Source: Polyangiaceae bacterium (GTDB taxonomy: Bacteria > Myxococcota_A > Polyangia > Polyangiales > Polyangiaceae). From it: a DNA stretch of 48,579 nucleotides. The notes below the pieces were generated by a model. The model saw nothing but the letters and a program-made list of their open reading frames with translations, did no database searches and was not told the origin of the DNA. The first letter of the stretch is position 1; every line of letters starts with the position of its first letter. The DNA lies in the NCBI GenBank assembly GCA_025937835.1, contig JAICQO010000046.1, positions 1 to 48,579 of the forward strand. Reading direction: 5' to 3'. Of this stretch, positions 17,353 through 39,518 are shown piece after piece. A program made the translations under genes and the position numbers.

Positions 17353-18549
17353 ATGCTCGAGCTCGAGGAGGCCAGGCAGCGCGTGCTCGATGCCTGCGGG
17401 GCGGCTCTTTTGCCGGCCGAGCCGGCGGCGCTGGCTGACGCGTTGGGACGCGTCCTGCGCGAAGACCTGGTCGCCACGACTCCGCTCCCGCCATTCGATT
17501 ACAGTGCGATGGATGGGTATTGCCTCGACTCGGCCAGATTGTCGGGGTCTCCGCCCTTCGAGCTGACCGTCGCAGGGGTGTCCCGGACCGGTCACCCCTG
17601 CCCTCCCCTGCCCGAGGGTGCAGCGCTGCGCATCTTCACGGGCGCTCGCCTGCCCGATGGCGCCGACGCGGTCGTGATTCAGGAGAACACGGAGCGCAAC
17701 GGCGACCTCGTTCGGCTGCTCACCACCCCTCGGACAGGAGATCACGTCCGCCGGCGCGGCGAAGACCTGGAAGCAGGGCAGCCGGCGCTCAGCGCGGGCA
17801 CGCGCCTCGGCCCGTTCCAGCTCGGGCTCGCCGCGGCGCTGGATCGCGCCCGCGTGCTCGTGTCGCGGCGGCCGCGCGTCGTGATCCTACCGAGCGGTGA
17901 CGAGCTGCGCGCGCCCGGGAGCCCCGGCGCGCTCGACTCGATCCCGGAGTCGAACGGCGTGGTGCTGCAAGCGCTGAGCTCGCTCGCAGGCGCGCTCTCC
18001 GAGCTCGGGCCACGCTTGCCCGACCAGCTCGAGCCGGCAGCACGCGCTTTCGGCGAGGCCTTCGAGCGCGCCGACCTCGTGGTCACGGTGGGCGGCATGA
18101 GCGTCGGCGATCACGACCTGGTGCGACCCGCGCTCGAGCGCGCGGGAGCGAGCCTCGACTTCTGGAAGGTCCGGATCCAGCCCGGCAAACCCGTGGCTTT
18201 CGGGCGCGGCGGCAACGCCTTCGTGCTCGGACTGCCGGGCAATCCCGTGTCGGCGCAGATCACGTTCTCGCTCTTCGGCATGCCGCTGCTGCGCGCTCTG
18301 TGCGCGGACCGCGCGCCCCTACCGGAGCGCATCACCGTCACGCTGGGGCACGACCTCGCGCGCAAACCGGGCCGCCTCGGCGTCTACCGCGCGCGTCTGT
18401 TCGGCAGCGAGGCCTGGCTCGACGGCAACCAGTCGTCCGGCGCGACGACCTCGCTCGCGCGCGCGGCAGCACTGGTGTTCGTTCCGGCGGAGAGCGCGCA
18501 CTGCCCGAGCGGCACGCGCCTCGAAGCGATCCGGCTCGATGACGTCTGA
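17353..18549 (+). CDS. moeA: Molybdopterin molybdenumtransferase
   Basis: MoeA inserts molybdate into adenylated molybdopterin. The 398-residue protein carries the expected elements: FDYSAMDGYCL near residue 50, FTGARLPDGADAVVIQEN, TVGGMSVGDHDLV for the pterin-binding domain, and GLPGNPVSAQITF followed by the small C-terminal beta domain. Its last 11 bases overlap the start of mobA. ATG 17353 fits the family's N-terminus. Confidence 0.95.
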   Translation: MLELEEARQRVLDACGAALLPAEPAALADALGRVLREDLVATTPLPPFDYSAMDGYCLDSARLSGSPPFELTVAGVSRTGHPCPPLPEGAALRIFTGARLPDGADAVVIQENTERNGDLVRLLTTPRTGDHVRRRGEDLEAGQPALSAGTRLGPFQLGLAAALDRARVLVSRRPRVVILPSGDELRAPGSPGALDSIPESNGVVLQALSSLAGALSELGPRLPDQLEPAARAFGEAFERADLVVTVGGMSVGDHDLVRPALERAGASLDFWKVRIQPGKPVAFGRGGNAFVLGLPGNPVSAQITFSLFGMPLLRALCADRAPLPERITVTLGHDLARKPGRLGVYRARLFGSEAWLDGNQSSGATTSLARAAALVFVPAESAHCPSGTRLEAIRLDDV

Positions 18550-19132
18550 CCCGACGTCCGAGCCGCCGCTGATCGGTCTGTTCGTCGGCGGGAAAGCCCG
18601 CCGCTTCGGCGGCATCGCCAAGGGCTGGCTCCAGACACCCGAAGGCACGAGCATCGCGGAGCGAACGATCGCGCTGGCGCACCAGGCGCTACCCGATGCG
18701 CAGCTGGTGCTGGTCGGTGACGCGAGCGCTTACGAGAAGCTCGGCATCGAGGCCATCGCGGATACGCCACCCGGGATTGGCCCGCTCGGCGGGCTCTCCG
18801 CGCTACTCACGGAGAGCGAGCGGCGCGGTTCACGAACGGCGCTGGCGCTGGCTTGCGACATGCCGTTTCTCTCTGCCGAGCTGATCCGGAGGCTGTGCGA
18901 GCACGCGCCCGCAGCTCCCGTGCTCGCGCCGCGACCGCCCGGACAACCCTGGTACGCGCTCACCGCTCGTTACGCGGTCGGCGTGCTGCCCGTGTTTCGG
19001 GCGATGATCGCCGAGCGCGAGCACAAGCTCCAGCGCTTGTTCGAGCGCGTTCCAGGAGCCGCCATGCTGCCGCTCTCCGAAGCGGAGCTCAGAGAGCTCG
19101 TGGATTGGGACACCCCGGCCGACGTGCGCTAG
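18539..19132 (+). CDS. mobA: Molybdenum cofactor guanylyltransferase
   Basis: This 197-residue nucleotidyltransferase has the MobA signature in a slightly divergent form: FVGGKARRFGGIAKGWL at the GTP-binding loop (usually LAGG with RMG), LGGLSALL, LACDMPFLS with the metal-binding aspartate, and a C-terminal WDTPAD. It adds GMP from GTP to molybdopterin-Mo to make the bis-MGD type cofactor. It overlaps moeA by 11 bases, and its TAG stop shares the palindrome CTAG (19129-19132) with the convergent moaCE gene. Confidence 0.92.
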   Translation: MTSDPTSEPPLIGLFVGGKARRFGGIAKGWLQTPEGTSIAERTIALAHQALPDAQLVLVGDASAYEKLGIEAIADTPPGIGPLGGLSALLTESERRGSRTALALACDMPFLSAELIRRLCEHAPAAPVLAPRPPGQPWYALTARYAVGVLPVFRAMIAEREHKLQRLFERVPGAAMLPLSEAELRELVDWDTPADVR

Positions 19133-20487
19133 CCGACCGAGCCGGGCAGGCGCGCATCTTCCCAGCCGATCCAGGACGAGCCGGACGGATCGTGCTCGCG
19201 CTTCCAGATCGGAACGCGCTGCTTCACGCGATCGATGAGCTCACGGCAGGCCCGGAACGCTTGCTCGCGATGCGCGGCGCTGGCAGCGCAGATCACGGCC
19301 ACGTCGCCGATCGATAGCGCGCCCACGCGGTGAAAGACGCACAGCCGTGTCCCGGGGATCTCGTCCTCGAGCTCGATCGCGATCCGCTCCATCTCTTTCA
19401 CGGCCATGCTCGCGTACGCCTGATACTCGAGCAGCTGCACGGGGCGGCCCAAGTTGTGGTCGCGCACCGTGCCGATGAACACCGCGATGCCACCGGCGTC
19501 CGCGCGCGAAACGCGCCGCACGGCCTCGTCCACCGATAGCGGGGCTTCGCTGATCGAAAAGCGCTCGACCGGCCCGGCGACGGGCGCTGTCTTGCGAAAA
19601 TCACCGCTCTTGCCTCCGGATTTTTCGAGCAGCTGCGTCGAGCCGATCACCATCGAGCGATCGAAGGCCTTCAGCATGTCGTAGACGGTGAGCGCGGCGG
19701 CGGTGGCCGAGGTCAGCGCCTCCATCTCGACGCCGGTTCGATCGAACGCCTCGACCGAGCTCTGGATCCGAACCGAGCGCTGCGCGGGCTCGAGCTCGAG
19801 CGCGACCTCGACCCGAGTGAGCGCGATCGGATGACAGAGCGGGATCAGATCCGAGGTGCGCTTTGCTGCCATGATGCCGGCGAGCCGCGCGGTGCCGAGC
19901 ACGTCGCCCTTCGGCGCGTCGGCGCGAAGCAGGCGTTCGAAAGCCTCGCTGTTCATGCTCACGCGGGCCGTCGCCACGGCTCGCCGCGCGCTGGCCGGCT
20001 TCTCCGAAACCGAGACCATTCGCGCGCCGCCGCGGGAGTCGAGGTGCGTCGAGTACGCGCTCACGCCGACGATCTCCTGATAGGCCTCGTTCAGACGCTC
20101 GCTGGCTCCCTTGCGCGCCACCTTGACCAGGGCGTAGCGATCGAGCGCAGAGAGTGCACTCCAGACCGCAGGCGTCAGCGGCCGCTCGCCACCCAGGGCG
20201 GAGAGCAGCGACTCGGGCGCCGCGCCCGACGGCGGATCCAACTCCGGCGAAATCGCCTGCGCCATCGGGCGCGCGCCTGCAAGGACCTCGGCCACCACGC
20301 GCGTGTCGACCTGCGGCACTCTGCCCAGCTCGACGAGCGTCTCCCGCAGCTGCCGCGACAGGCTCTTCCAGCCGTCCAGTGATGGGCGAAGTCCGGCGAG
20401 GTCGGCCGCGCGACGTGCCGAGAGCGGCATCAGCTCGAGCTCTCGACCGATCCGTTCGAAGGCGTAGACGCTCACCCGGCCGAGCAT
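19129..20487 (-). CDS. moaCE: NarE-like / MoaC / MoaE three-domain fusion
   Basis: Three parts are visible in 452 residues. Residues 1-142 resemble the nitrate-reductase-associated protein family: FERIGRELELMPLSARRAADL, then LRPSLDGWKSL, then LTPAVWSALSALDRYALVKV. Residues 146-303 are MoaC, cyclic pyranopterin monophosphate synthase, with KRTSDLIPLCHPIALT (209-224) and GVEMEALTSATAAALTVYDM. Residues 309-450 are MoaE, the large subunit of molybdopterin synthase, with FIGTVRDHNLGRPV, FHRVGALSIGD, AHREQAF and the active-site lysine in VPIWKREH. ATG 20487 is likely (GTG 20475 possible). It is divergent from moaA by 30 bp. MoaD, the sulfur-carrying small subunit, is not in the window. Confidence 0.88.
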   Translation of the reverse strand: MLGRVSVYAFERIGRELELMPLSARRAADLAGLRPSLDGWKSLSRQLRETLVELGRVPQVDTRVVAEVLAGARPMAQAISPELDPPSGAAPESLLSALGGERPLTPAVWSALSALDRYALVKVARKGASERLNEAYQEIVGVSAYSTHLDSRGGARMVSVSEKPASARRAVATARVSMNSEAFERLLRADAPKGDVLGTARLAGIMAAKRTSDLIPLCHPIALTRVEVALELEPAQRSVRIQSSVEAFDRTGVEMEALTSATAAALTVYDMLKAFDRSMVIGSTQLLEKSGGKSGDFRKTAPVAGPVERFSISEAPLSVDEAVRRVSRADAGGIAVFIGTVRDHNLGRPVQLLEYQAYASMAVKEMERIAIELEDEIPGTRLCVFHRVGALSIGDVAVICAASAAHREQAFRACRELIDRVKQRVPIWKREHDPSGSSWIGWEDARLPGSVG

Positions 20488-20517: not shown

Positions 20518-21540
20518 GTGACTGAGGCTCTGGAGCAGAGCTTGCTCGATCGGCTGGGGCGGCCCGTCCGCGACCTGCGCGTGAGCGTCACCGACCGCTG
20601 CAACTTTCGCTGCCGCTACTGCATGCCGCGCGAGCACTTCGGCGCGGGTCACGAATTTTTGCCGCGCACGCAGCTCCTGAGCTTCGAGGAGCTCGCGCGC
20701 GTCGCCGGCGTGGTGGCGGCGCTCGGCGTGGTCAAGGTCCGGCTCACCGGCGGAGAGCCGCTGCTCCGGGCCAATCTCGAGCGGCTCGTCTCCCAGCTCG
20801 CGCAAATCCCGCGGCTCGAGGTGGCGCTGACCACCAACGGCTCACTGCTGAAACGCTCGGCGCAGGCCCTGGCCGACGCGGGGCTGTCCCGGCTCACCGT
20901 CAGCTTGGACGCGCTGGATCCCGAGATCTTCCGGCGCATGACGGACGCGGACTACACCCCCGGCGACGTGCTCGAGGGCATCGCCGCCGCGGAACGCGCA
21001 GGTCTGTCTCGGATCAAGATCAACACGGTAGTGCGGCGCGGCGTGAACGACAGCGAGGTCTTGCCGCTCGCGCGCCACTTCCACGGCTCGGGCCACGTCC
21101 TGCGCTTCATCGAGTACATGGATGTCGGCGGCACCAACGACTGGTCGCGGCGCGACGTCGTCACGGCCGACGAGATCGTCGCGCGCATCGACAGCGAGCT
21201 GCCGCTCGAGCGGCTCGAGCCGAGCGCCTTCGGTGAAGTCGCCGAACGCCATCGCTACCGCAGCGGCGGCGGGGAGATCGGCGTGATCGCCAGCATCACC
21301 AAGCCCTTCTGCGGCAACTGCACGCGCCTGCGCCTGTCCTCGGAAGGCCGGCTCTACACCTGCCTGTTCGCGACCCGCGGGGAAGACCTGCGCGAACGGC
21401 TGCGCAGCGGAGCAACCGACGCCGAGCTCGCCGAGTTCGTCGCGAACCTGTGGCGGCAGCGGGAAGACCGCTACTCCGAGCTGCGCGTGCCCGAGCGCCG
21501 GCGGCTTCCGCGCATCGAGATGAGCTACATCGGCGGCTAG
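20518..21540 (+). CDS. moaA: GTP 3',8-cyclase
   Basis: This radical-SAM enzyme starts molybdopterin synthesis from GTP. It has an N-terminal [4Fe-4S] motif CNFRCRYC (Cys28, Cys32, Cys35) and a C-terminal cluster at Cys265, Cys268 and Cys282 (FCGNCTRLRL and YTCLF), and ends in the conserved Gly-Gly (YIGG). Length is 340 residues from a GTG start. It is divergent from moaCE, so the two first steps of the pathway share a 30-bp promoter region. Its TAG lies in the palindrome CTAG (21537-21540) shared with the convergent small gene. Confidence 0.96.
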   Translation: MTEALEQSLLDRLGRPVRDLRVSVTDRCNFRCRYCMPREHFGAGHEFLPRTQLLSFEELARVAGVVAALGVVKVRLTGGEPLLRANLERLVSQLAQIPRLEVALTTNGSLLKRSAQALADAGLSRLTVSLDALDPEIFRRMTDADYTPGDVLEGIAAAERAGLSRIKINTVVRRGVNDSEVLPLARHFHGSGHVLRFIEYMDVGGTNDWSRRDVVTADEIVARIDSELPLERLEPSAFGEVAERHRYRSGGGEIGVIASITKPFCGNCTRLRLSSEGRLYTCLFATRGEDLRERLRSGATDAELAEFVANLWRQREDRYSELRVPERRRLPRIEMSYIGG

Positions 21541-22325: not shown

Positions 22326-23531
22326 ATGCGCCATGCGCTGACACACTCAGCGCGCCCGAGCTCCGTGAAAAACGCGTTCATCGGATACGTACCGAAGCCG
22401 TCTCGGTCTGCGCTGCGCTGGTTCTGTAGCCTGCTCGCCGCGGGCGCGTTGGGCTCCGCGTGCGGCAACGAGACGGTAGACGATCTGTTCACCGCCAGCG
22501 ATGCGTCGCGCGGCGGCGGCGCGCCGATCGTGCGACCCGAGCCGGCCGGAACCGGCGGCGGGCCGTTCGTATTGCCGAACCTGCCGAGCACGGGGGGAAG
22601 CAGCGTCGCGCTCGGCGACGGCGGCGAACCGTCTCGCTCCGGGAGCTTGGGCGGCCAGACTGGCGTCGGATCGAGCGCAACCAGCGGCGGCGCCGAGCCG
22701 GCAAGCGCTGGCTCGACCTCGAGCGGCGGCTCGGCCACGGGGGGCGTCGCGACGGCGAGCGGCGGCACAGCCGGGGGCGGCGTCGGCGGCAGTGTCGGCG
22801 GTAACGACGATCCGAACGGCAGCCCGAGCAGCGGCGGTGCGCCCGACGCGAGCGAAGGCGGCAGCGACGGCGTGAGCGAGGGCGGCTCGGGCGGCGAAGG
22901 CGGCGCGTCCCCCTGCCCGACCGGCAAATGCGAGTTCGACTGCAGCGTCGACGGAGCGTGCACCGAAAAGGTCACCTGCCCCGACGGCCACGATTGTTCG
23001 GTGAAGTGCGGGCCGGGTGGGTGCGGCGGCGGCGTGCGCTGCCCCAAGGCAGGCAAGTGCACGGTCGATTGCAGCGAGCCCGGTTCCTGCGTCGGCGACA
23101 TCCGCTGCGAGGGCAGCGACTGCCGCGTGCTTTGCCGCGGCGCGGGCTCGTGCCTCGGCGTCGTCAACGGGAACGCCGACACCATGACGGTCGAGTGCTC
23201 CGGTGCCGAGTCGTGTCAGAGCAACGTGACCTGCGGCGGCAAGGTCTGCACCCTGACCTGCTCCGGCGAGGAGTCTTGCGCTGCGGGAGTTTCCGCCAAC
23301 GCTGCGCGAGACACCGTGAATTGCACGGGAGACGGTTCGTGTCAGGGCAAGGTGGAGTGCAGCGCCACCAATTGCACCGTCCATTGCAAGGGACGCGAGG
23401 CGTGTCAGTCGCAAGTCACTTGCAGCGCGACCAGCTGCGATGTCGAATGCGGCGCCTGCGCCTGTTTCGCCGACGTCTACTGCAACGCGAGCCGCTCGAG
23501 CTGCCCGCGCGGCAACCGCACCTGTCGCTGA
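22326..23531 (+). CDS. Lipoprotein with Gly/Ser linker and Cys-repeat domain
   Basis: The 401-residue product has a signal ending in lipobox GSAC (ALRWFCSLLAAGALGSACGN). A Gly/Ser/Ala-rich linker follows to about residue 195. The C-terminal 200 residues contain a cysteine repeat in which blocks such as CTVDCSEPGSCVGDIRC, CRVLCRGAGSCLG, CTLTCSGEESCAAGV and CTVHCKGREACQSQVTC recur about every 20-25 residues. The pattern is roughly C-x3-C-x5-7-C. It resembles the Cys-rich protein at 24981 and is probably a disulphide-stapled beta-solenoid-like surface domain. GTG 22365 is an alternative start. It overlaps the hydrolase gene by 85 bp. Confidence 0.82.
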   Translation: MRHALTHSARPSSVKNAFIGYVPKPSRSALRWFCSLLAAGALGSACGNETVDDLFTASDASRGGGAPIVRPEPAGTGGGPFVLPNLPSTGGSSVALGDGGEPSRSGSLGGQTGVGSSATSGGAEPASAGSTSSGGSATGGVATASGGTAGGGVGGSVGGNDDPNGSPSSGGAPDASEGGSDGVSEGGSGGEGGASPCPTGKCEFDCSVDGACTEKVTCPDGHDCSVKCGPGGCGGGVRCPKAGKCTVDCSEPGSCVGDIRCEGSDCRVLCRGAGSCLGVVNGNADTMTVECSGAESCQSNVTCGGKVCTLTCSGEESCAAGVSANAARDTVNCTGDGSCQGKVECSATNCTVHCKGREACQSQVTCSATSCDVECGACACFADVYCNASRSSCPRGNRTCR

Positions 23532-24385: not shown

Positions 24386-24994
24386 TCAGAACAGGAACGA
24401 GACTCCGAGCGAGAAGGTCGGGTAACCGATACGCAGCGTGAGCGCCACGCTGTCCGAGAAATGCAGCCGCCCTCCCGCGTACAAGACGAACGGCGAGACG
24501 CCGAGGTCGCCGTGCGCGTGGCGGAGCAAGAGCCCCGGCTCACCGAACACGGACCAGCGCGGGGACAGCCAGAAGTTCCACTGCATCACGACCGGCAGCA
24601 GATAGTAGACGGAGTTGCCCGAGCCGCTGACTTCCGTACAAATGCGCGTCCCGTTCAACCCGGGCTCGAATTCCTCGCACTGGCCGCGCGCGTCGCCATC
24701 GTACTCGAGCACGTCCAGCCCGACGCCGAGCGCCACCGAATCGTTCAGTTTGTGAATGAACCCGTCGCGCACGAGCTCGAACGAGGCGCGGAGCCCGAGC
24801 CCGTACCCACCGTCCGCTCCGGGACCGGGCCCCGGCGGATCGAAGGGCCCGAGCACTACGTGCGGCTCGAGCTCGACGGAGTACGGAAACCTGTCGCCCG
24901 GGTTCTTGATCGTGCTCTGCGCGTGCGCGGTGCCGCTCAGAGCGGATAGCGTGACGAGCCCGGCCAGGAGCCCTGCGAGCTTAGCAAGTGCCAC
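24386..24994 (-). CDS. Predicted outer-membrane beta-barrel protein
   Basis: A signal peptide (LAKLAGLLAGLVTLSALSGT, cleavage near AHA-Q) is followed by alternating-residue strands: YSVELEPHVVLGPF, YGLGLRASFELVRDG, NSVYYLLPVVMQWNFWL and a terminal aromatic strand LRIGYPTFSLGVSFLF ending in Phe, as in barrel C-termini. GTG 24994 is preferred because GGAGGGG lies seven bases upstream; TTG 25000 is possible. The gene overlaps the end of the Cys-rich gene by 14 bp, so the pair is coupled. Function unknown. Confidence 0.72.
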   Translation of the reverse strand: MALAKLAGLLAGLVTLSALSGTAHAQSTIKNPGDRFPYSVELEPHVVLGPFDPPGPGPGADGGYGLGLRASFELVRDGFIHKLNDSVALGVGLDVLEYDGDARGQCEEFEPGLNGTRICTEVSGSGNSVYYLLPVVMQWNFWLSPRWSVFGEPGLLLRHAHGDLGVSPFVLYAGGRLHFSDSVALTLRIGYPTFSLGVSFLF

Positions 24995-25502
24995 AGGCAA
25001 ACCCCTCCACGCAAGACACTCGCTGCTCGCCGCCGGCGCAACGAACGTCGCAGCGGCCGGTACCAATGCACGTGACACGGCACGGGCCGTTGCACTCGAC
25101 CTCGCAGCTCGAGACGTTGTCGCACCTCACTTCGCTGCCGGGCCCGACCTCCACCCCGCAACGATCGGCGTCGCTGCAGCGGTAGCGGCAGGACTCGTCG
25201 CAGCGGGCGGCGCAGGAGTTGACGCTAGAGCACTGCATGTCGCAGCGGTCGCCGCAGGCCGCGGAGCACTCATTCATGGAGTGGCAGCGGAAACTGCAGC
25301 CGTCCTCACACACGCCGCCGCAGCGTTGCATGTTGTGACAGTACTGGTCGCACCCGCCGTCTTCGCAGCCGAGGTAGCACTCGTTACCGCTGGCGCACTC
25401 GCAGATATCGCCGTCTTTGCAGCCTTCCTCGCACTGCAGAGTGGTGAAGAGCAAGGCTGCGCCTACGGCGACGCGTCGTAAGAAAATAGGCACGAACTTC
25501 AA
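24981..25502 (-). CDS. Cys-repeat lipoprotein
   Basis: The 173-residue protein has a short signal with lipobox TLQC, then a mature domain with cysteine about every fifth residue. It is built of repeats such as CSFRCHSMNECSAACGDRC, CRYRCSDADRCGVEV and CRVTCIGTGRCDVRC. The repeat (C-x3-C-x5-C, period about 16-20) matches in style the C-terminal domain of the 22326 protein 1.4 kb away. Start is TTG 25502 or GTG 25493. It overlaps the barrel gene downstream. Probably exported and disulphide-rich; role unknown. Confidence 0.72.
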   Translation of the reverse strand: MKFVPIFLRRVAVGAALLFTTLQCEEGCKDGDICECASGNECYLGCEDGGCDQYCHNMQRCGGVCEDGCSFRCHSMNECSAACGDRCDMQCSSVNSCAARCDESCRYRCSDADRCGVEVGPGSEVRCDNVSSCEVECNGPCRVTCIGTGRCDVRCAGGEQRVSCVEGFACGTC

Positions 25503-32805: not shown

Positions 32806-33516
32806 ATGAATAAGCTTGGAAGTCTGGTGGTGTTCGGTGCGTTGCTCGTTCCGCAAACGGTGTTCGCGCAGGATCGGTTCGGGAGCGCCGGTCAGTTCGC
32901 GATCAGCGCGGACCGCCTCACGGGCATCTCTCACACCACGATCAAGAGTGAGCTCGGCGCGGTGGAGCGGACGGACAGCCTGACCACGATCACGCTCTTT
33001 ACCAACACGCTCGGAGATCGCACGTCGGTCTACTCGGCGCCACGTCTCGGCGGTGACTACTTCGTGATCGACGGGCTCTCGCTCGGCGCGGCGATTGGTA
33101 TCGTTCACAACACGAGCTCGCGAGAAATGGCGCAAGGCAACGACAGCATCGAAACCGACGGTCCGAGCCGCACTGGCTTTCTGTTCTATCCGCGGGTCGG
33201 CTATGCCCTGATGTTCCAGGACAACTTCGGGTTCTGGCCGCGCGGCGGCCTGACTTACGCGAGCGCGAGCAGCACGACCGAAGGCGACGACGGCGACGAC
33301 GACAGCACCCAGAGCGAGAGCGCCCTGGCCCTCTCGCTCGAAGCGCTCTTCGTGTTCAGCCCGGTTCCACACGTCGCGTTCACCGGTGGCCCGACGCTGG
33401 ATCTCGGGCTGAGCGGCACTTACGAAACGGAAAACCCGCCCATGGGAGACGACCAGGAGTACGACATCAAGGCCACCGACATCGGCCTGCAGCTCGGCGT
33501 CAGCGTGTTCTTCTGA
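32806..33516 (+). CDS. Predicted outer-membrane beta-barrel protein
   Basis: ATG 32806 follows a good ribosome-binding site (GGAGAGG). The signal peptide is MNKLGSLVVFGALLVPQTVF, cleaved after FAQ. The 236-residue protein has strand-like segments (YFVIDGLSLGAAIGIVHN, LFYPRVGYALMFQDNFGFW, HVAFTGGPTLDLGLSG) and ends in LQLGVSVFF with a terminal Phe, as barrels do. An acidic loop (EGDDGDDDSTQSES) lies around residue 165. Its end overlaps the convergent carH-like gene by 17 bp. Confidence 0.75.
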   Translation: MNKLGSLVVFGALLVPQTVFAQDRFGSAGQFAISADRLTGISHTTIKSELGAVERTDSLTTITLFTNTLGDRTSVYSAPRLGGDYFVIDGLSLGAAIGIVHNTSSREMAQGNDSIETDGPSRTGFLFYPRVGYALMFQDNFGFWPRGGLTYASASSTTEGDDGDDDSTQSESALALSLEALFVFSPVPHVAFTGGPTLDLGLSGTYETENPPMGDDQEYDIKATDIGLQLGVSVFF

Positions 33517-34435
33517 TCGGCCGCGCCGCGCGCTCGGCGAGCAGCGCCTCGAAATCGGCGAGGCTTGCGAGCGCCGTCGGCTTCCGCGCTGCTCGCTGGG
33601 CGATGGTCTCGGCGAGCGGGCCCCCCAATACGAGCTCGACCTGCTTCGGCAGCTCCGAGAGCAGCTGATCGATCTCTTCGACGGCTCGCTCCACCTCGAG
33701 CGCCAGCACCGACAGCGCGACCATGCCGGCGCCCGAGCTCCGCGCGGCGAGCGCGATCTGAGCCGCCGGCAGATCGGGCCCCAGGTACAACACGCCGAAG
33801 CCGCGCAGCTTGGCCGTGGCAGCGGCCAGCATCGCGCCGAGCTCGTGGAGCTCACCCGCGGGTGTGGACACCACGATCAACTCGGCGCCCGGATCCGGCG
33901 GCAGCTTGCGCAACAGTTGGCTCGCGTGGTCGCGCACCAAAGCCGAGGCCACGTGCTCACTCGCCGAGCAAAGCCCGCCCTCCGCCCACTCGTCCCCGAT
34001 CCGGACCAGCAACGGCGCGAGTACGTCGAGCACCAGCGTCCGCGCCGAGAACAGCAGCGAGGCGCGATCCAGCAGCTCCTGCGCGTGCGCCGCCTCGAAG
34101 CCGCGCACCGCTTCCAGAAACTCCGCGACGATTTCGGACGCGCTGTCTCCGCCCGCCTCGGAATCGCGCGCCGAGCCCTGTCCCGGCCGCTCACCGGCGA
34201 GCCGCACCAGCGCTTCCCGGTCGAGCGGTACGAGCTGTCCGATGGGGTGGCCGCGATCGACCGCGCGCTTCAGCAACCGGAGCCGCGCGACCTCGGCCTC
34301 GGAGTACAAGCGCGCTCCGCCTTCGCTGCGCGTGGGCGCGGGCACACCGTAGCGCCGCTCCCAGACCCGCAGGGCGTGGGTGCTGATCCCGGCGAGGCGC
34401 GCGACGGTGCCGATCCGATACAGCGGCTCAGCCAT
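33500..34435 (-). CDS. carH: MerR-type B12-binding regulator (CarH/LitR-like)
   Basis: This is a candidate light-sensing repressor of carotenoid genes. Residues 1-70 are a MerR winged helix (YRIGTVARLAGISTHALRVW, then RRYGVPAPTRS). The C-terminal part is a B12-binding module. The helical cap has W-x9-EH (Trp150, Glu160, His161), the CarH motif that senses the adenosyl group. The cobalamin domain has ExHxxG (GELHELG, His197 as lower ligand). Both hallmark motifs are intact, so light-labile adenosylcobalamin sensing is plausible. It is the last gene of the crt operon, overlapping the membrane protein gene by 8 bp, so it should be autoregulated. The 11-bp tandem repeats at 39519-39603 are candidate operators. 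Confidence 0.88.
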   Translation of the reverse strand: MAEPLYRIGTVARLAGISTHALRVWERRYGVPAPTRSEGGARLYSEAEVARLRLLKRAVDRGHPIGQLVPLDREALVRLAGERPGQGSARDSEAGGDSASEIVAEFLEAVRGFEAAHAQELLDRASLLFSARTLVLDVLAPLLVRIGDEWAEGGLCSASEHVASALVRDHASQLLRKLPPDPGAELIVVSTPAGELHELGAMLAAATAKLRGFGVLYLGPDLPAAQIALAARSSGAGMVALSVLALEVERAVEEIDQLLSELPKQVELVLGGPLAETIAQRAARKPTALASLADFEALLAERAARPIRRTR

Positions 34436-35003
34436 GTGCTGCGAGCAGGCGCAGCACGTCCGGTACGCCGCGGTAGTCGTCGAAGAACCAGGCCCACCAG
34501 GCGATCATCATCGTCAGGTGACCGACGAAGATGCCGACGTGGCTCCACATTTCGACGCGGTCGGAGCGGCTGGAGACGTAGCGACGCCAGTGAAAGGCTT
34601 CGTCGATCAGGCTGTACAGAAAAGAGAGCACGGTCAGCACCAGCGCGGGGATCCAGAACGCGCGGCGCTCGGCATACGCCGCGCACAAGAGGACGCAAGA
34701 GCCGATCCCACAAAAGATCGTGATGCCGTGGACCAGGCCTTCGGCGAGCTGGATTTCTTGCTTGTAGATCGTGCGGTGGCCGATCGTGTCGATGGCGATC
34801 GAGACCGTGAAGATCAGCGCCCCGACCGGCACCAGGTAAGCCTCCGCCGGTAGCGCGGCCCCGCCGAAGTGCCCGACGCCGACGAAGGTCGCCGTCGAGA
34901 TCACGAGGCCGACCATCAGCCCGACCCAGGCGACGTACACCCACCAGTCCTCGCGCGAGAACTCGCGCATGCGACCGACGTAGGTCAAGAGCTCAGCGCC
35001 CAT
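34428..35003 (-). CDS. Five-helix membrane protein of the carotenoid operon
   Basis: The 191-residue protein has five hydrophobic segments (for example VYVAWVGLMVGLVISTATFV, LVPVGALIFTVSIAIDTIG, VLTVLSFLYSLIDEAFHW, IFVGHLTMMIAWWAWFF). Histidines near membrane ends (GHFGG, GHRTIYKQE, EAFHWRRY, WSHVG, GHLT) could bind a metal, as in membrane hydroxylase or desaturase families, but the classic HxxxH/HxxHH set is not evident. I do not recognise a family. Position between crtB and the regulator (11-bp and 8-bp overlaps) ties it to carotenoid metabolism or pigment placement. Confidence 0.7.
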   Translation of the reverse strand: MGAELLTYVGRMREFSREDWWVYVAWVGLMVGLVISTATFVGVGHFGGAALPAEAYLVPVGALIFTVSIAIDTIGHRTIYKQEIQLAEGLVHGITIFCGIGSCVLLCAAYAERRAFWIPALVLTVLSFLYSLIDEAFHWRRYVSSRSDRVEMWSHVGIFVGHLTMMIAWWAWFFDDYRGVPDVLRLLAAHG

Positions 35004-35880
35004 TGGACACCTGCAGAGACGCGGCCTTGCGCCGCAGCGGCGCGACGGCGCGCGCGGCGCACTCGCCGACGAGCGCGAGCAGCACCAAGAGCACCTTGTG
35101 GAACCCAGAGACGACGGCGCGCCCCGCGTGCACGTCGTAACCCTGCGCCGCAATGCGCGCGCCGATCGCTGCGTACACCAGCCGCGCCGCGCGCACGGCC
35201 ACGGCGATCCGGAACGGCAGCGCGGAGAGCCCGAGCTCTCCCGAGGCGTAGTAACGATCGGCGAGCGCGAGCAAGCGCCGCAGCGCGAGATTCACGCGCT
35301 CGGACGAGCCCAGCTCGAGCGGTGCGCCAGCGGCCGAGCCGAGCAACTCCGCCGGCAGGTAGACGCGATTTTTGCCCCAATCTTCGGCGACGTCGCGGCA
35401 CACGTTGGTGAGCTGCATGGCGATACCGAGGTGGTTCGCGTGCGTGAGCGCGCGCGCGTCGTGAACCCCGAACACGCGGCACGACATCAGCCCCACCACC
35501 CCGGCCACGCGATGCGCATAGATCAGGAGCTCGGAGAGCGTGCGGATCCGGACCGCCCCCACGTCCGAGCGGAACCCGTCGAGCAGCGCCCGCGGATAGC
35601 TCTCGGGTATGGAGTAGCGGAAGACGACGCGCTGGAACTCGACCAGCACCGGGTCCAGCTGGGGCTGTCGCGCATAGACGGAGCCCAGCTCCGCGGCGAG
35701 CGCGTCGATCCGCGCCGGTTGCTCGGCAGCGGTCGCGTCGTCGACGAGGTCGTCCGCGCGCCGGCAATACGCGTAGAGCACCGCGATGTCGTCGCGGCAG
35801 CTCCGTGGCAAGGCGCGCGCCGCGAGCGCGAAGCTCTTCGAGCCCCGAGCCAACATCGATTGAGCCAGCGCCACGCTCAT
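34993..35880 (-). CDS. crtB: Phytoene synthase
   Basis: CrtB condenses two geranylgeranyl diphosphates to phytoene. The 295-residue product shows the squalene/phytoene synthase motifs: KSFALAARALP, YAYCRRADDLVDD (first aspartate-rich motif), and LTNVCRDVAEDWGKNRVYLP (second motif). Length is normal. ATG 35880 overlaps the crtI stop by four bases, and the end overlaps the membrane protein gene by 11 bp, so translation is coupled through the operon. Confidence 0.96.
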   Translation of the reverse strand: MSVALAQSMLARGSKSFALAARALPRSCRDDIAVLYAYCRRADDLVDDATAAEQPARIDALAAELGSVYARQPQLDPVLVEFQRVVFRYSIPESYPRALLDGFRSDVGAVRIRTLSELLIYAHRVAGVVGLMSCRVFGVHDARALTHANHLGIAMQLTNVCRDVAEDWGKNRVYLPAELLGSAAGAPLELGSSERVNLALRRLLALADRYYASGELGLSALPFRIAVAVRAARLVYAAIGARIAAQGYDVHAGRAVVSGFHKVLLVLLALVGECAARAVAPLRRKAASLQVSNGR

Positions 35881-37361
35881 GCTCCGAGGTCCTCCAGCAC
35901 CAGCCGCGCCGTGGCCTTGCCCGACGCGACGACGCCGGGCACGCCGGCACCCGGGTGAGTCCCAGCGCCGACCAGATACAACCCGGGGATCCGTGAGTCC
36001 TTGTTGTGCGGCCGAAACCAGGCGCTCTGAGTCAGGAGCGGCGCCAGCGAGAACGCCGAGCCCTGATAGGCGAACAGCCCGCGCTCGAAATCGAGCGGCG
36101 TGGTGGCGCGCTGCACGACCACGTGCCGGCGTACATCGGGCATCCAGCGCTCGAGCGCCGCGAGGATCCGCTCGGCATAGCGCGGAGCCAGCGTGTCCCA
36201 ATCGAGCCGAGCGTTGCCGAGGTGCGGCACCGGCGAGAGCACGTAATAGGCGCCTCCGCCGGGCGGCGCGAGCGACGGATCGGTGACCGTCGGCGCGTGG
36301 AGGTAAAGACTGAAGTCCTCCGGCAACGACTCGCCGTGAAAGATCTCGTCGAGCAACGCTCGGTAGCGCGGGCCGAAGAGCACGTTGTGGTGCGCGATCG
36401 GGTAGCTGCGGTCGGTGCCGAAGTACAAGACGAACAGTGACATCGACCACTCGGACCTCTCGAGCTTCTGGCGCATCGCGTCCGCGGCCGGCTGCTTGCG
36501 ATACAGGCGCGCGTAGGTGTGGTGCAAGTCGGCGTTGGAGACCACGGCGTGGAACGGCTCGCGCGAGCGTCCCGCCGAGCTCACGAGGTGGCGAAGGCAA
36601 CCAGCGCTGTGCTCGAGCTCGACCCGCTCCACCGGTGCGTTCAGACGCAGCTCTCCGCCGAGCTCTTGGTAGAGCCGCACCAGAGCTCGCACCAGCGCGC
36701 CCGTACCGCCACGCGGGAAAAAGACGCCCCATTCGCGCTCGAGGTGGTGGATCAGCGTGTAGATCGAGCTGGTCTCGAACGGATTGCCTCCGACCAACAG
36801 CGAATGAAAGCTGAGCGCCTGGCGCAGGTGCTCGTTCTTCACGAAGCGCGCCACGGTGGCGTACACCGAGCGATCGGCGCGCAGGCGCACCAACGACGGC
36901 GCGACGCGCACCATGTCCGAGAAGCGCAGGAACGGCTCGGCAGCCAGCTCGACGTAGCCCTTTTGAAAGACACGCCGCGTGTAGTCGACGAAGCGCTGGT
37001 AGCCCGCCACGTCGTCGGGCGAGAGCCGCGCGATCTCGTCGAGGAAGCCCGCGCCGCCCGTGTAGTCGAGCTCAGTGCCGTCGTCCCAGAGCAGCCGATA
37101 GAACGGCGTCACCGGTAAGAACTCGACGTAGTCTTCGCGGCGCTTGCCAGCGAGCTCGAACAGCTCGTCGATCGCCTGCGGTGCGGTGATCACGGTGGGG
37201 CCCGCGTCGAACACGTAGCCCGAGTCCTCGTGCACGTAGGCGCGCCCGCCGGGCTTGTCCTTGGCCTCGAACAACACCGTGTCCACGCCCGCGGCTTGGA
37301 GGCGGATCGCGGCCGAAAGCCCGCCGAAGCCGCTGCCGATCACGGCGATCGGCTCAACCAC
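35877..37361 (-). CDS. crtI: Phytoene desaturase
   Basis: This FAD-dependent amine-oxidase-fold enzyme converts phytoene to neurosporene or lycopene. The dinucleotide-binding motif IAVIGSGFGGLSAAIRL opens the protein, followed by EAKDKPGGRAYV and DAGPTVITAP. The C-terminal FAD segment GLYLVGAGTHPGAGVPGV is the CrtI-type signature. GTG 37361 is chosen because it puts VVEPIAVIGSG at the start and overlaps the crtE stop by eight bases; an upstream start would extend into crtE. Product is 494 residues, normal for CrtI. Confidence 0.95.
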   Translation of the reverse strand: MVEPIAVIGSGFGGLSAAIRLQAAGVDTVLFEAKDKPGGRAYVHEDSGYVFDAGPTVITAPQAIDELFELAGKRREDYVEFLPVTPFYRLLWDDGTELDYTGGAGFLDEIARLSPDDVAGYQRFVDYTRRVFQKGYVELAAEPFLRFSDMVRVAPSLVRLRADRSVYATVARFVKNEHLRQALSFHSLLVGGNPFETSSIYTLIHHLEREWGVFFPRGGTGALVRALVRLYQELGGELRLNAPVERVELEHSAGCLRHLVSSAGRSREPFHAVVSNADLHHTYARLYRKQPAADAMRQKLERSEWSMSLFVLYFGTDRSYPIAHHNVLFGPRYRALLDEIFHGESLPEDFSLYLHAPTVTDPSLAPPGGGAYYVLSPVPHLGNARLDWDTLAPRYAERILAALERWMPDVRRHVVVQRATTPLDFERGLFAYQGSAFSLAPLLTQSAWFRPHNKDSRIPGLYLVGAGTHPGAGVPGVVASGKATARLVLEDLGA

Positions 37362-38382
37362 CGTACGTCTCCAGGCGCGCAAGCTCCCGCTCGAGCTCCG
37401 CCAGCGCCGGTGAGTCTGTGAACCGCGCCCTCACTCGGGCGAGCGCACGCTCGAGCCGACCACGGATCGCGGCTCTGCCGGCCTCTTCGATCTGCTCGGC
37501 GAGCTGCTCGGCGAGCAGCAGCGGGTCGAGCTCTCCGCGTTGCACCGCCTCGAGCACGCCGCGAAAGCGCAGGTAGCTCAGCCGGTCGCACCGCTCCGCG
37601 AGCCAGGCCCAGACCCAGGTCGGCCGTCCCAGCACCAAGTCTTCCCTGCCCTTGTCGCGGCGGCGCTCCACGCAGATCCCCGTCAGGTCGTCGAGCATCT
37701 GCAGCACCACACCGAGCTCCGCGCCGAGCTCCGCCAGCACCGTCAGCGATGCCGGCTCGGCATCTGCGGCAGCAGCCCCGAGCTCGGCGGCGAGCTCCAT
37801 CAAGCTCCCGGTCTTGAGCCGCGTCGTGGCGAACACCACGTCCGACACCTCGCGCTGCCGCAGCTCAGCGACCCGCACCGACAGATCGAGCGCTTGCCCG
37901 TAGTGGCAGCGCAACACGGCGCGATCGATCGCGCGGCGCAGCGCGAGCTCGACCGGCGCGGCGAAGCCGGCGCGCGCAAGCACGGCGCCGGGCCAGAAAT
38001 ACAGCCAATTTCCGGCGTTCAGCGCGAGCGGCAATCCGACCTGTTGATGCAGACACGGCACGCCGCGCCGGCACTCCGACCCATCCTCGATGTCGTCTAC
38101 GATCAGCGAGCCCAGGTGTAACGCTTCGACGATCAGCGCGAGCTCCCGCGGTGCCTCGCCCTCTCCGCCGGAGAGCTCCCAGCAGATCCCCGACAGCCGG
38201 GCGCGAAACTCCTTGCCCGGTTGGCGCGATGCTTTCGACAGCGGGTCGAACAACGCCCGATCGAGCAGGCGCTGCGGCACGATCAGATCGAGCGGTAACA
38301 CACCCGGTCTGAGCCGCGCTTCGCGATCCAGCGCCTCGGCCAAGAGGGGGACGGCTTCGAGGGACGGCGCGCGGTTTATCAT
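37354..38382 (-). CDS. crtE: Polyprenyl (geranylgeranyl) diphosphate synthase
   Basis: The chain-elongating prenyltransferase makes the C20 precursor. The first aspartate-rich motif is DDIED (within LIVDDIEDGSECRRG). The second is reduced to LDDLTG, lacking the usual final Asp; this DDxxG form occurs in some GGPP synthases. The lead segment EALHLGSLIVDDIED is typical. Length 342 residues. ATG 38382 overlaps the crtY stop by four bases. Substrate length (GGPP) is inferred from operon context. Confidence 0.93.
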   Translation of the reverse strand: MINRAPSLEAVPLLAEALDREARLRPGVLPLDLIVPQRLLDRALFDPLSKASRQPGKEFRARLSGICWELSGGEGEAPRELALIVEALHLGSLIVDDIEDGSECRRGVPCLHQQVGLPLALNAGNWLYFWPGAVLARAGFAAPVELALRRAIDRAVLRCHYGQALDLSVRVAELRQREVSDVVFATTRLKTGSLMELAAELGAAAADAEPASLTVLAELGAELGVVLQMLDDLTGICVERRRDKGREDLVLGRPTWVWAWLAERCDRLSYLRFRGVLEAVQRGELDPLLLAEQLAEQIEEAGRAAIRGRLERALARVRARFTDSPALAELERELARLETYGG

Positions 38383-39518
38383 GCTCGTTCTCCGATCAGG
38401 CGGGTCAGCGAAAACCCTCGTGGCGGGCGACCGCACAGGATGCGCGTGCGATCGAGAGCCGTGGTTTGGTGGGCGTAGAAGCGGCGGATCGTCTCGACCG
38501 GTAAGCGGTAGAACCGCTCGAGCACCGAGTAACGATTGGCGGGTGCGACGCCGCAGAAAAGCAAGCGGTTGAGCCACGCCGCGAAGCGCTGGTTCGAAAG
38601 CTCGCGCTGCGCGAGACGCTCGAGGCGGGCGCCGAGCTCCAGAGGCTCCGACTCCGCGACGGTGAGCGCGTAGCGCACCGCGAGCGGGAACGAATAACCC
38701 GTGGTCGGGTGGAACCAGCCGCCCGCGTAACCGCCGCGAAAGCGGCCCCTTTCTCCGACCTCGGCGAGCGGCGCGCGGCGGGGCAGCGGCAACACCCCCG
38801 TCTCTTCGCGCAGCACGTTCCGTGAGACGATGCCCCGGGAAGCAACGTAGCGCTCGATACCGGTGCGGAGCGCTGCGACGTCCAGCGCCGGCGTGTCCGA
38901 GAAGTACGTGTCCTCGACGAGCAGGCGAGCGCGGCCGAACGGCAACAGATAGACGAAGCGAAAGCCGTCGTTCTGCTCCACGCAGGCGTCCATCAGCACC
39001 GGCGAAGACGGCCCTGAGCCCGGCTCCACCTCGAGCTCGAGGCCGAGGAACTTTTGATAGCCGAGCACGTGCTTTCGCTCGGCGAGCTCCGGGCCGCGCG
39101 CGTCGATCACGACCTTTGCCTCGAGGCGTGCGCCCGACGCGAGCTCCACGTGCTTCACTCCGACGAAAGCCGCGCGCTCCCCCAGGTACAACGTGAGCGC
39201 GCCGCGGGCTGCACGCTCTCCGAGCACGCGCTGCACCGAAGCCGAATCGAGCGCCGCGTAGGGTTCGTCCAGCGTGCGCTCGAGCTCGGGAAAGCGCACC
39301 GACTGCCGCCGCCAGCGCTCGATCACGAACGGCTCGACGAAGGGCATCGCTTTCGCCGGCACGTCGGCCGCGTGAAAGCACCAGGTGTGATTGCCGCCCA
39401 GGGCGGGCCCCTGCTCGATGACGGCGAGCGTCGCGGTCGGCCGGAGCTGGCAAAGCGCCTCCGCAATCAGGGCATTTTGCAGGCCGCCCCCGACCAGGAC
39501 GTAATCGAGCTGGGTCAT
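38379..39518 (-). CDS. crtY: Lycopene beta-cyclase
   Basis: The 379-residue CrtY-type flavoprotein cyclises lycopene ends to beta-ionone rings. The nucleotide-binding start LDYVLVGGGLQNALIAEALC and GGNHTWCFHAADV are diagnostic, and FRGGYAGGWFHPTTGYSFPLA is the conserved C-terminal block. It is the first gene of the operon, with its ATG immediately next to the 11-bp repeats. Together with CrtE, CrtI and CrtB it gives a complete route from isoprenyl units to beta-carotene. Confidence 0.95.
   Translation of the reverse strand: MTQLDYVLVGGGLQNALIAEALCQLRPTATLAVIEQGPALGGNHTWCFHAADVPAKAMPFVEPFVIERWRRQSVRFPELERTLDEPYAALDSASVQRVLGERAARGALTLYLGERAAFVGVKHVELASGARLEAKVVIDARGPELAERKHVLGYQKFLGLELEVEPGSGPSSPVLMDACVEQNDGFRFVYLLPFGRARLLVEDTYFSDTPALDVAALRTGIERYVASRGIVSRNVLREETGVLPLPRRAPLAEVGERGRFRGGYAGGWFHPTTGYSFPLAVRYALTVAESEPLELGARLERLAQRELSNQRFAAWLNRLLFCGVAPANRYSVLERFYRLPVETIRRFYAHQTTALDRTRILCGRPPRGFSLTRLIGERA

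Follow-up and report, generated by a model that had tools for sequence, protein, structure and literature searches.

One gene of the window (the whole 48 579-nucleotide stretch of Polyangiaceae bacterium DNA analysed here, contig JAICQO010000046.1) encodes a NarM domain, a MoaC domain and a MoaE domain in a single protein. The active-site residues are conserved, the genome has no other match to MoaC or MoaE, and the join recurs in other genomes. We read the fusion, with moderate confidence, as the working MoaC and MoaE of the cell, carrying NarM as an accessory of molybdenum-cofactor supply that is not dedicated to nitrate reductase. The MoaC part would make cyclic pyranopterin monophosphate (cPMP) from the MoaA product, and the MoaE part would provide the catalytic subunit of molybdopterin synthase, with an unlinked MoaD acting in trans. 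NarM would most likely be non-catalytic, holding or docking pathway enzymes, intermediates or client enzymes. Catalytic activity of both fused enzymes, the role of NarM as an accessory and whatever advantage tethering may bring are inferences on our part. NarM is a little-understood helper thought to serve nitrate reductase only, and the fusion makes its function testable.

Table 1. Cofactor genes of the window and parts of the fusion protein
Feature	Position	Strand	Basis
NarM-MoaC-MoaE fusion gene	19129..20487	-	452 aa open frame; Pfam; orthologous fusions
NarM (Nitr_red_assoc) domain, residues 10-131	20095..20460	-	PF09655
MoaC domain, residues 157-292	19612..20019	-	Pfam 179 bits, E 5.9e-53
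MoaC-MoaE linker, residues 301-311	19555..19587	-	AlphaFold2 model; low confidence at 302-306
MoaE domain, residues 312-424	19216..19554	-	PF02391 123.3 bits, E 7.3e-36, cut-off 23.4
moaA (GTP 3',8-cyclase)	20518..21540	+	TIGR02666 375.6 bits, cut-off 284.05; divergent from fusion gene
mobA-like NTP transferase	18539..19132	+	PF12804 88.7 bits, cut-off 27
moeA (molybdenum insertase)	17353..18549	+	PF03453, PF00994, PF03454; overlaps mobA

The fusion gene and the cofactor genes of its genome

The fusion gene is one intact frame of 452 codons, with its domains in the order NarM, MoaC, MoaE (Table 1). An earlier note made from the letters alone had described these three domains in one protein, and its order and coordinates are borne out by the open frame and by Pfam, where all three domains exceed their cut-offs. 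Besides the ATG at 20487 there is an alternative GTG start at 20475 (448 aa), which may be the true one because the relative at L002 begins at the corresponding GTG, its only in-frame start. The same join occurs in other assemblies, at 49–65% identity over nearly the whole length. These same-frame relatives rule out a chimera or a sequencing error, the latter named in the note as something that could have created the fusion. AlphaFold2 gives the full protein a mean pLDDT of 91 and a pTM of 0.58, so the domains are predicted to be well formed and their mutual packing is left unsettled.

The MoaC domain also exceeds the cut-offs of NCBIfam families TIGR00581 (194.2 bits, cut-off 141.5) and NF006870 (216.7 bits, cut-off 162). 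The MoaE domain is below that of the stricter MoaE family NF007959 (89.1 bits, cut-off 175). Among the canonical rows of alignment A1, MoaC positions K193, H219, E254, E256, D270 and K273 are present and conserved. MoaE positions F337, R342, H406, R407 and K422 are conserved in the same alignment, as is K429 just past the domain. The sole departure among canonical rows is at E256 in L011; odd residues in L010 and L036 are misaligned tails of rows without MoaE, and L047 is a degenerate copy. K193 aligns with E. coli MoaC residue 51 in 1EKR, a residue that is alanine in 4PYA. We take the conserved MoaC positions, K51 of E. coli MoaC included, to be catalytic residues, K422 and K429 to be the catalytic lysines of MoaE, and H406-R407 to be its phosphate-binding H-R pair. 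MoaD/ThiS families are absent among the Pfam and NCBIfam matches of the fusion protein.

The front domain scores 40.5 bits against PF09655 (E 4.7e-10, cut-off 25), and 42.4 bits in a second scoring against the same cut-off. The assignment of residues 1–142 to a nitrate-reductase-associated family, made earlier from pattern memory, was thus right, while the name "NarE-like" given with it was wrong: the family is NarM. The NCBIfam model for NarM, TIGR02664, aligns to residues 15–133 with 43.5 bits and does not reach its cut-off of 110, so we describe the domain as a diverged NarM-like PF09655 domain and not as a TIGR02664 member. In a profile–profile comparison, 18 fused NarM domains matched six free-standing plasmid NarM proteins with a probability of 98.5% (E 1.7e-15); this and the PF09655 scores rule out a chance match. 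AlphaFold2 models residues 1–145 as helices with almost no strand (pLDDT 94). Searching PDB sequences with the domain gave nothing of weight (one match at E 0.78). The best Foldseek E was 5.3 and none of 82 chains had Z ≥2, which does not make the fold new. With no match in the fold search, the activity of NarM is not readable from structure.

In the window's genome, which is 95.8% complete, the fusion gene is the single match to MoaC and the single match to MoaE, so the fusion should supply all molybdoenzymes of the cell. MoaD had been reported as missing locally. That holds for the surroundings of the gene, but MoaD is present in the genome: an 82 aa protein with a C-terminal GG is encoded on contig C91 (TIGR01682, 71.2 bits, cut-off 66.15). 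Judged from sequence, this MoaD should dock to the fused MoaE in trans. A ThiF/MoeB-like gene that scores below the MoeB cut-offs is on C221. The mobA-like gene of the window is convergent with the fusion gene, and their 3′ ends overlap by 4 bases.

Elsewhere in the window, the stretch at 33500–39518 may be a carotenoid cluster under light control: it encodes a MerR regulator with a B12-binding domain, which we take to resemble CarH, and close by a lycopene cyclase and a flavoprotein of the amine-oxidase type. At 22326–23531 and 24981–25502 are encoded two cysteine-rich proteins that, by eye, look secreted and contain repeated motifs.

Distribution and origin of the fused frames

A taxonomic survey of the fusion, proposed in the note, covered 183 genomes of the order, including 108 of the window's family. 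The three-domain frame was found in five of the 183 (G000, G376, G378, G385 and G343); loci L002, L004 and L003 are G376, G378 and G343 by matching coordinates or sequence and add no cases. NarM-MoaC without MoaE in one frame occurs in at least 42 of the 108 family genomes, and also in G315 outside the family. With or without MoaE, NarM-MoaC is in at least 47 of the 108. The frames without MoaE were called from match ends and frame lengths, and these counts are lower bounds. At 18 of 21 NarM-MoaC loci examined, MoaE is the next gene, in a separate frame; at L201, L209 and L212 it was not found directly after NarM-MoaC.

The three-domain state requires three changes on a tree built from 35 NarM-MoaC rows, where a single clade is rejected (p-AU 0.029). 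That tree was made quickly and is weakly supported; taken by themselves, its starred branches call for only one change. MoaE probably joined NarM-MoaC more than once, two or three times, from adjacent genes. A tree of 65 MoaC rows groups 17 of the 20 canonical NarM-MoaC rows together (SH-aLRT 100) and places L033, L036 and L043 elsewhere; L167 and L168, with no usable MoaC match, were omitted. Because MoaE is mostly outside the fused frame and the canonical rows cluster in the MoaC tree, NarM-MoaC is the conserved unit.

MoaC can do without NarM: in a sample of 282 genomes, six members of the family carry a MoaC and give no match to PF09655, although one of the six, G144, shows a stretch that looks NarM-like by eye. 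MoaC and MoaE share one frame without NarM at L152 (G234), L155 (G159), L160 (G061) and L194 (G328), of which the Pfam scan covered L152 only. In G234 NarM is joined to MobA instead. At L164 (G144) a very diverged MoaC is followed in frame by a MoaB/MogA-looking domain (by eye).

Two other accounts of the fusion bear on this history. One is that it channels cPMP from MoaC to MoaE, consecutive steps of the pathway that do share one chain. cPMP, though taken in the note to be unstable, is the most stable early intermediate of the pathway. Channelling as the purpose of the fusion appears weakened by MoaE being mostly a separate next gene whose join was probably repeated: of the 47 family genomes with a NarM-MoaC join, 42 have no MoaE in the fused frame (both counts are lower bounds), and the predicted packing of the domains is uncertain at the pTM given above. 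We consider channelling highly improbable.

The other account is a neutral join of neighbouring genes, in which NarM, MoaC and MoaE stay independent and the tether is functionless. It would fit the adjacency of MoaE at most two-domain loci, the probably repeated MoaE join, the existence of MoaC-MoaE joins without NarM, and the frameshift origin proposed for archaeal fusions in the available part of PMC11237513. Yet NarM-MoaC has been kept across the well-supported clade of canonical rows, and every NarM fusion in the 21 genomes described below is to MoaC, a MoaC-like domain or MobA, which random joining would not lead one to expect. A purely neutral join thus seems improbable to us, and we keep to the reading of NarM as an accessory of cofactor supply.

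Settings of NarM and the link to nitrate reductase

A PF09655 match was found in 21 of 282 Myxococcota genomes. NarM is in an intact MoaC fusion in 10 of these, joined to a degenerate MoaC-like domain in two, fused to MobA in two and encoded by a free gene in seven. The two degenerate cases, G006 and G041, have borderline NarM scores (24.4 and 24.3 bits, cut-off 25). The fusion with MobA occurs in both orders, NarM first in G234 (L031) and MobA first in G177 (L083, NarM 29.7 bits). Free narM is directly before mobA in L064, G159, and beside mobA in L074, G149 (convergent in G149). In G239 a free narM is one gene away from a napA-like gene, which scores below the NapA cut-off.

Outside Myxococcota, NarM was found on seven plasmids, six of acetic acid bacteria and one of Agrobacterium. 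On each of the six from acetic acid bacteria, the gene that comes immediately after narM, at a distance of 4 to 95 bases, encodes an FdhF/YdeP oxidoreductase. Downstream, three plasmids have moaA, a MoaD/ThiS gene, moaE and fdhD, and a fourth has an NTP transferase gene and fdhD. Scores were obtained for one plasmid NarM (163.5; NarM cut-off 110) and for two of the narM neighbours (910 and 909; FdhF/YdeP cut-off 582). No nitrate reductase gene was seen in the stretches around narM read on these six plasmids. The Agrobacterium narM is surrounded by amino-acid genes, and no molybdenum gene lies less than 9 kb away. In Myxococcota the data do not support FdhF/YdeP as a constant partner of NarM: G000, G163 and G006 have it, but none was found among the classified proteins of G254 (three) and G196 (two), which are part of each genome's set.

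Other features of these loci were recorded. Just upstream of narM on plasmids of acetic acid bacteria (L219, L222, L224, L225) are cytochrome bd ubiquinol oxidase genes, with a DUF2474 gene in between; subunit II is unlisted in L225. NarM-like genes of family f2 are directly beside protoglobin-histidine kinase sensor genes at L075 (8991–10614), L076 (9508–11094) and L080; the kinase call is from Pfam in L075 and L076, and the neighbour in L080 is similar. Joins of a NarM-like to a degenerate MoaC-like domain are at L047 (994–1866), L046 (775–1881), L166 (1003–1890) and L168 (955–1908). Their MoaC-like domains lack active-site residues, LCHP being LCYP in L047 and L166, and the NarM part of L166 and L168 has no Pfam match and was called by eye. 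G006 (L046) and G249 (L168) have an additional intact MoaC. The protein of NarM and degenerate MoaC is a possible non-catalytic paralogue. G041 (L047, L088; given as 97% complete) has a NasA orthologue at 66% identity, only the degenerate MoaC, and no MoaE match.

In its founding work NarM was reportedly essential to nitrate reductase activity in a cyanobacterium. It could be a chaperone specific to nitrate reductase, the fusion tying cofactor production to maturation of that enzyme. The curated name, "nitrate reductase maturation protein NarM", is in line with this, as are the near-equal counts of narM (119 of 132 genomes) and narB (118 of 132) among picocyanobacteria in the accessible part of PMC9361551.

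So is the window's own genome, where another contig has a nasA-like gene clustered with nirB (1082.6 bits, cut-off 578), nirD (101.4, cut-off 74.65) and a gene for a NarK-like transporter (182.1, below its cut-off of 311.7). The nasA-like protein reaches no NCBIfam cut-off (the best is Fdh-alpha at 497 against 666; NasA is 475 against 1000), and its label therefore rests on the nirB, nirD and transporter neighbours. At L005, whose row is identical to that of G377 from the window's genus, the nasA of a nirB-nirD-transporter-nasA cluster ends right before the NarM-MoaC gene; L007 has nirB, nirD and the transporter.

Across the sample, a NasA, NarG or NapA match is in 13 of the 21 NarM genomes and in 81 of the 261 others (Fisher p 0.005, with relatedness ignored). 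The association is weaker when curated cut-offs are applied to NarG and NapA: 7 of the 21 and 42 of the 261 then have a match (p 0.051). NasA was counted in the 15 genomes with at least 57% identity out of 24 at E 1e-100 or better, dropping nine at 33–40% that included the NarM carriers G177 and G239. Of the 70 genomes counted for NapA, 52 score below the cut-off of the family, as do three of the 20 counted for NarG.

Against a dedicated chaperone, NasA orthologues are in only three of the 21 NarM genomes, which also rejects a strict NarM-NasA partnership in Myxococcota. G163, G196 and G254 have canonical fusions, yet nothing in them matches NasA, NarG or NapA at E 1e-100 or better; of the eight proteins classified from them, one is an FdhF/YdeP, one is an alpha subunit of formate dehydrogenase, and six reach no cut-off. 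Further, six of the seven plasmid narM genes are directly before FdhF/YdeP, and the only MoaC and MoaE matches of the window's genome are fused and must serve all of its molybdoenzymes. We regard a chaperone for nitrate reductase alone as rather unlikely.

We prefer to read NarM as an accessory of cofactor supply because its fusions and most of its neighbours share the molybdenum cofactor and not one client. Its partners are MoaC, MoaE and MobA, the last of these catalysing the last step towards MGD, and the neighbouring clients are NasA, a NapA-like protein and FdhF/YdeP. Counting against this reading are the association with nitrate reductase that remains, the narM locus in Agrobacterium, the f2 genes beside protoglobin kinases, and the names in the literature and databases that tie NarM to nitrate reductase.

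A wider proposal, which we offer tentatively and expect may well fail, is that NarM is a general cofactor-handling domain that would act at several points of the pathway and load many bis-MGD enzymes, FdhF/YdeP included. The recurrent fusion to MoaC and MobA places NarM in the cofactor pathway, and the wider role is predicted from narM adjoining the gene of a non-nitrate molybdoenzyme. If this were true, the name of NarM as a nitrate reductase factor would be historical.

Comparison with known systems

We found no report of NarM fused to MoaC or MobA in the literature searched, outside of which lie most subscription journals; domain databases may list such architectures. The NarM of the window and the plasmid NarM proteins both have the motifs P-x-x-(A/V)-R-(R/Q) and W-x-x-L-x-x-L-x-R-(Y/F), but in the window the domain is fused ahead of MoaC-MoaE whereas the plasmid proteins are free-standing. 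Module 52 of cyanobacteria brings together molybdenum cofactor proteins A and C, MoeA, "MoeE", nitrate reductase and its associated protein, according to the part of PMC5862535 available; these are separate ortholog groups, in contrast to the single polypeptide of the window.

Fusions of MoaC with MoaE and of MoaC with MoaB are described for Archaea, with several origins and perhaps by way of frameshifts, in the part of PMC11237513 at hand. The archaeal MoaC-MoaE proteins likewise join MoaC to the enzyme of the next step. The protein of the window differs in being bacterial and in having NarM first, a domain that goes unmentioned for Archaea in that part of the source. The 146-residue chain of MoaX (PDB 9JBD, an entry named as a MoaD-MoaE fusion) matches the MoaE of the window at 109.6 bits. 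MoaX, by its name, joins both subunits of molybdopterin synthase, whereas in the window's genome MoaE shares its chain with MoaC, and MoaD has a gene of its own.
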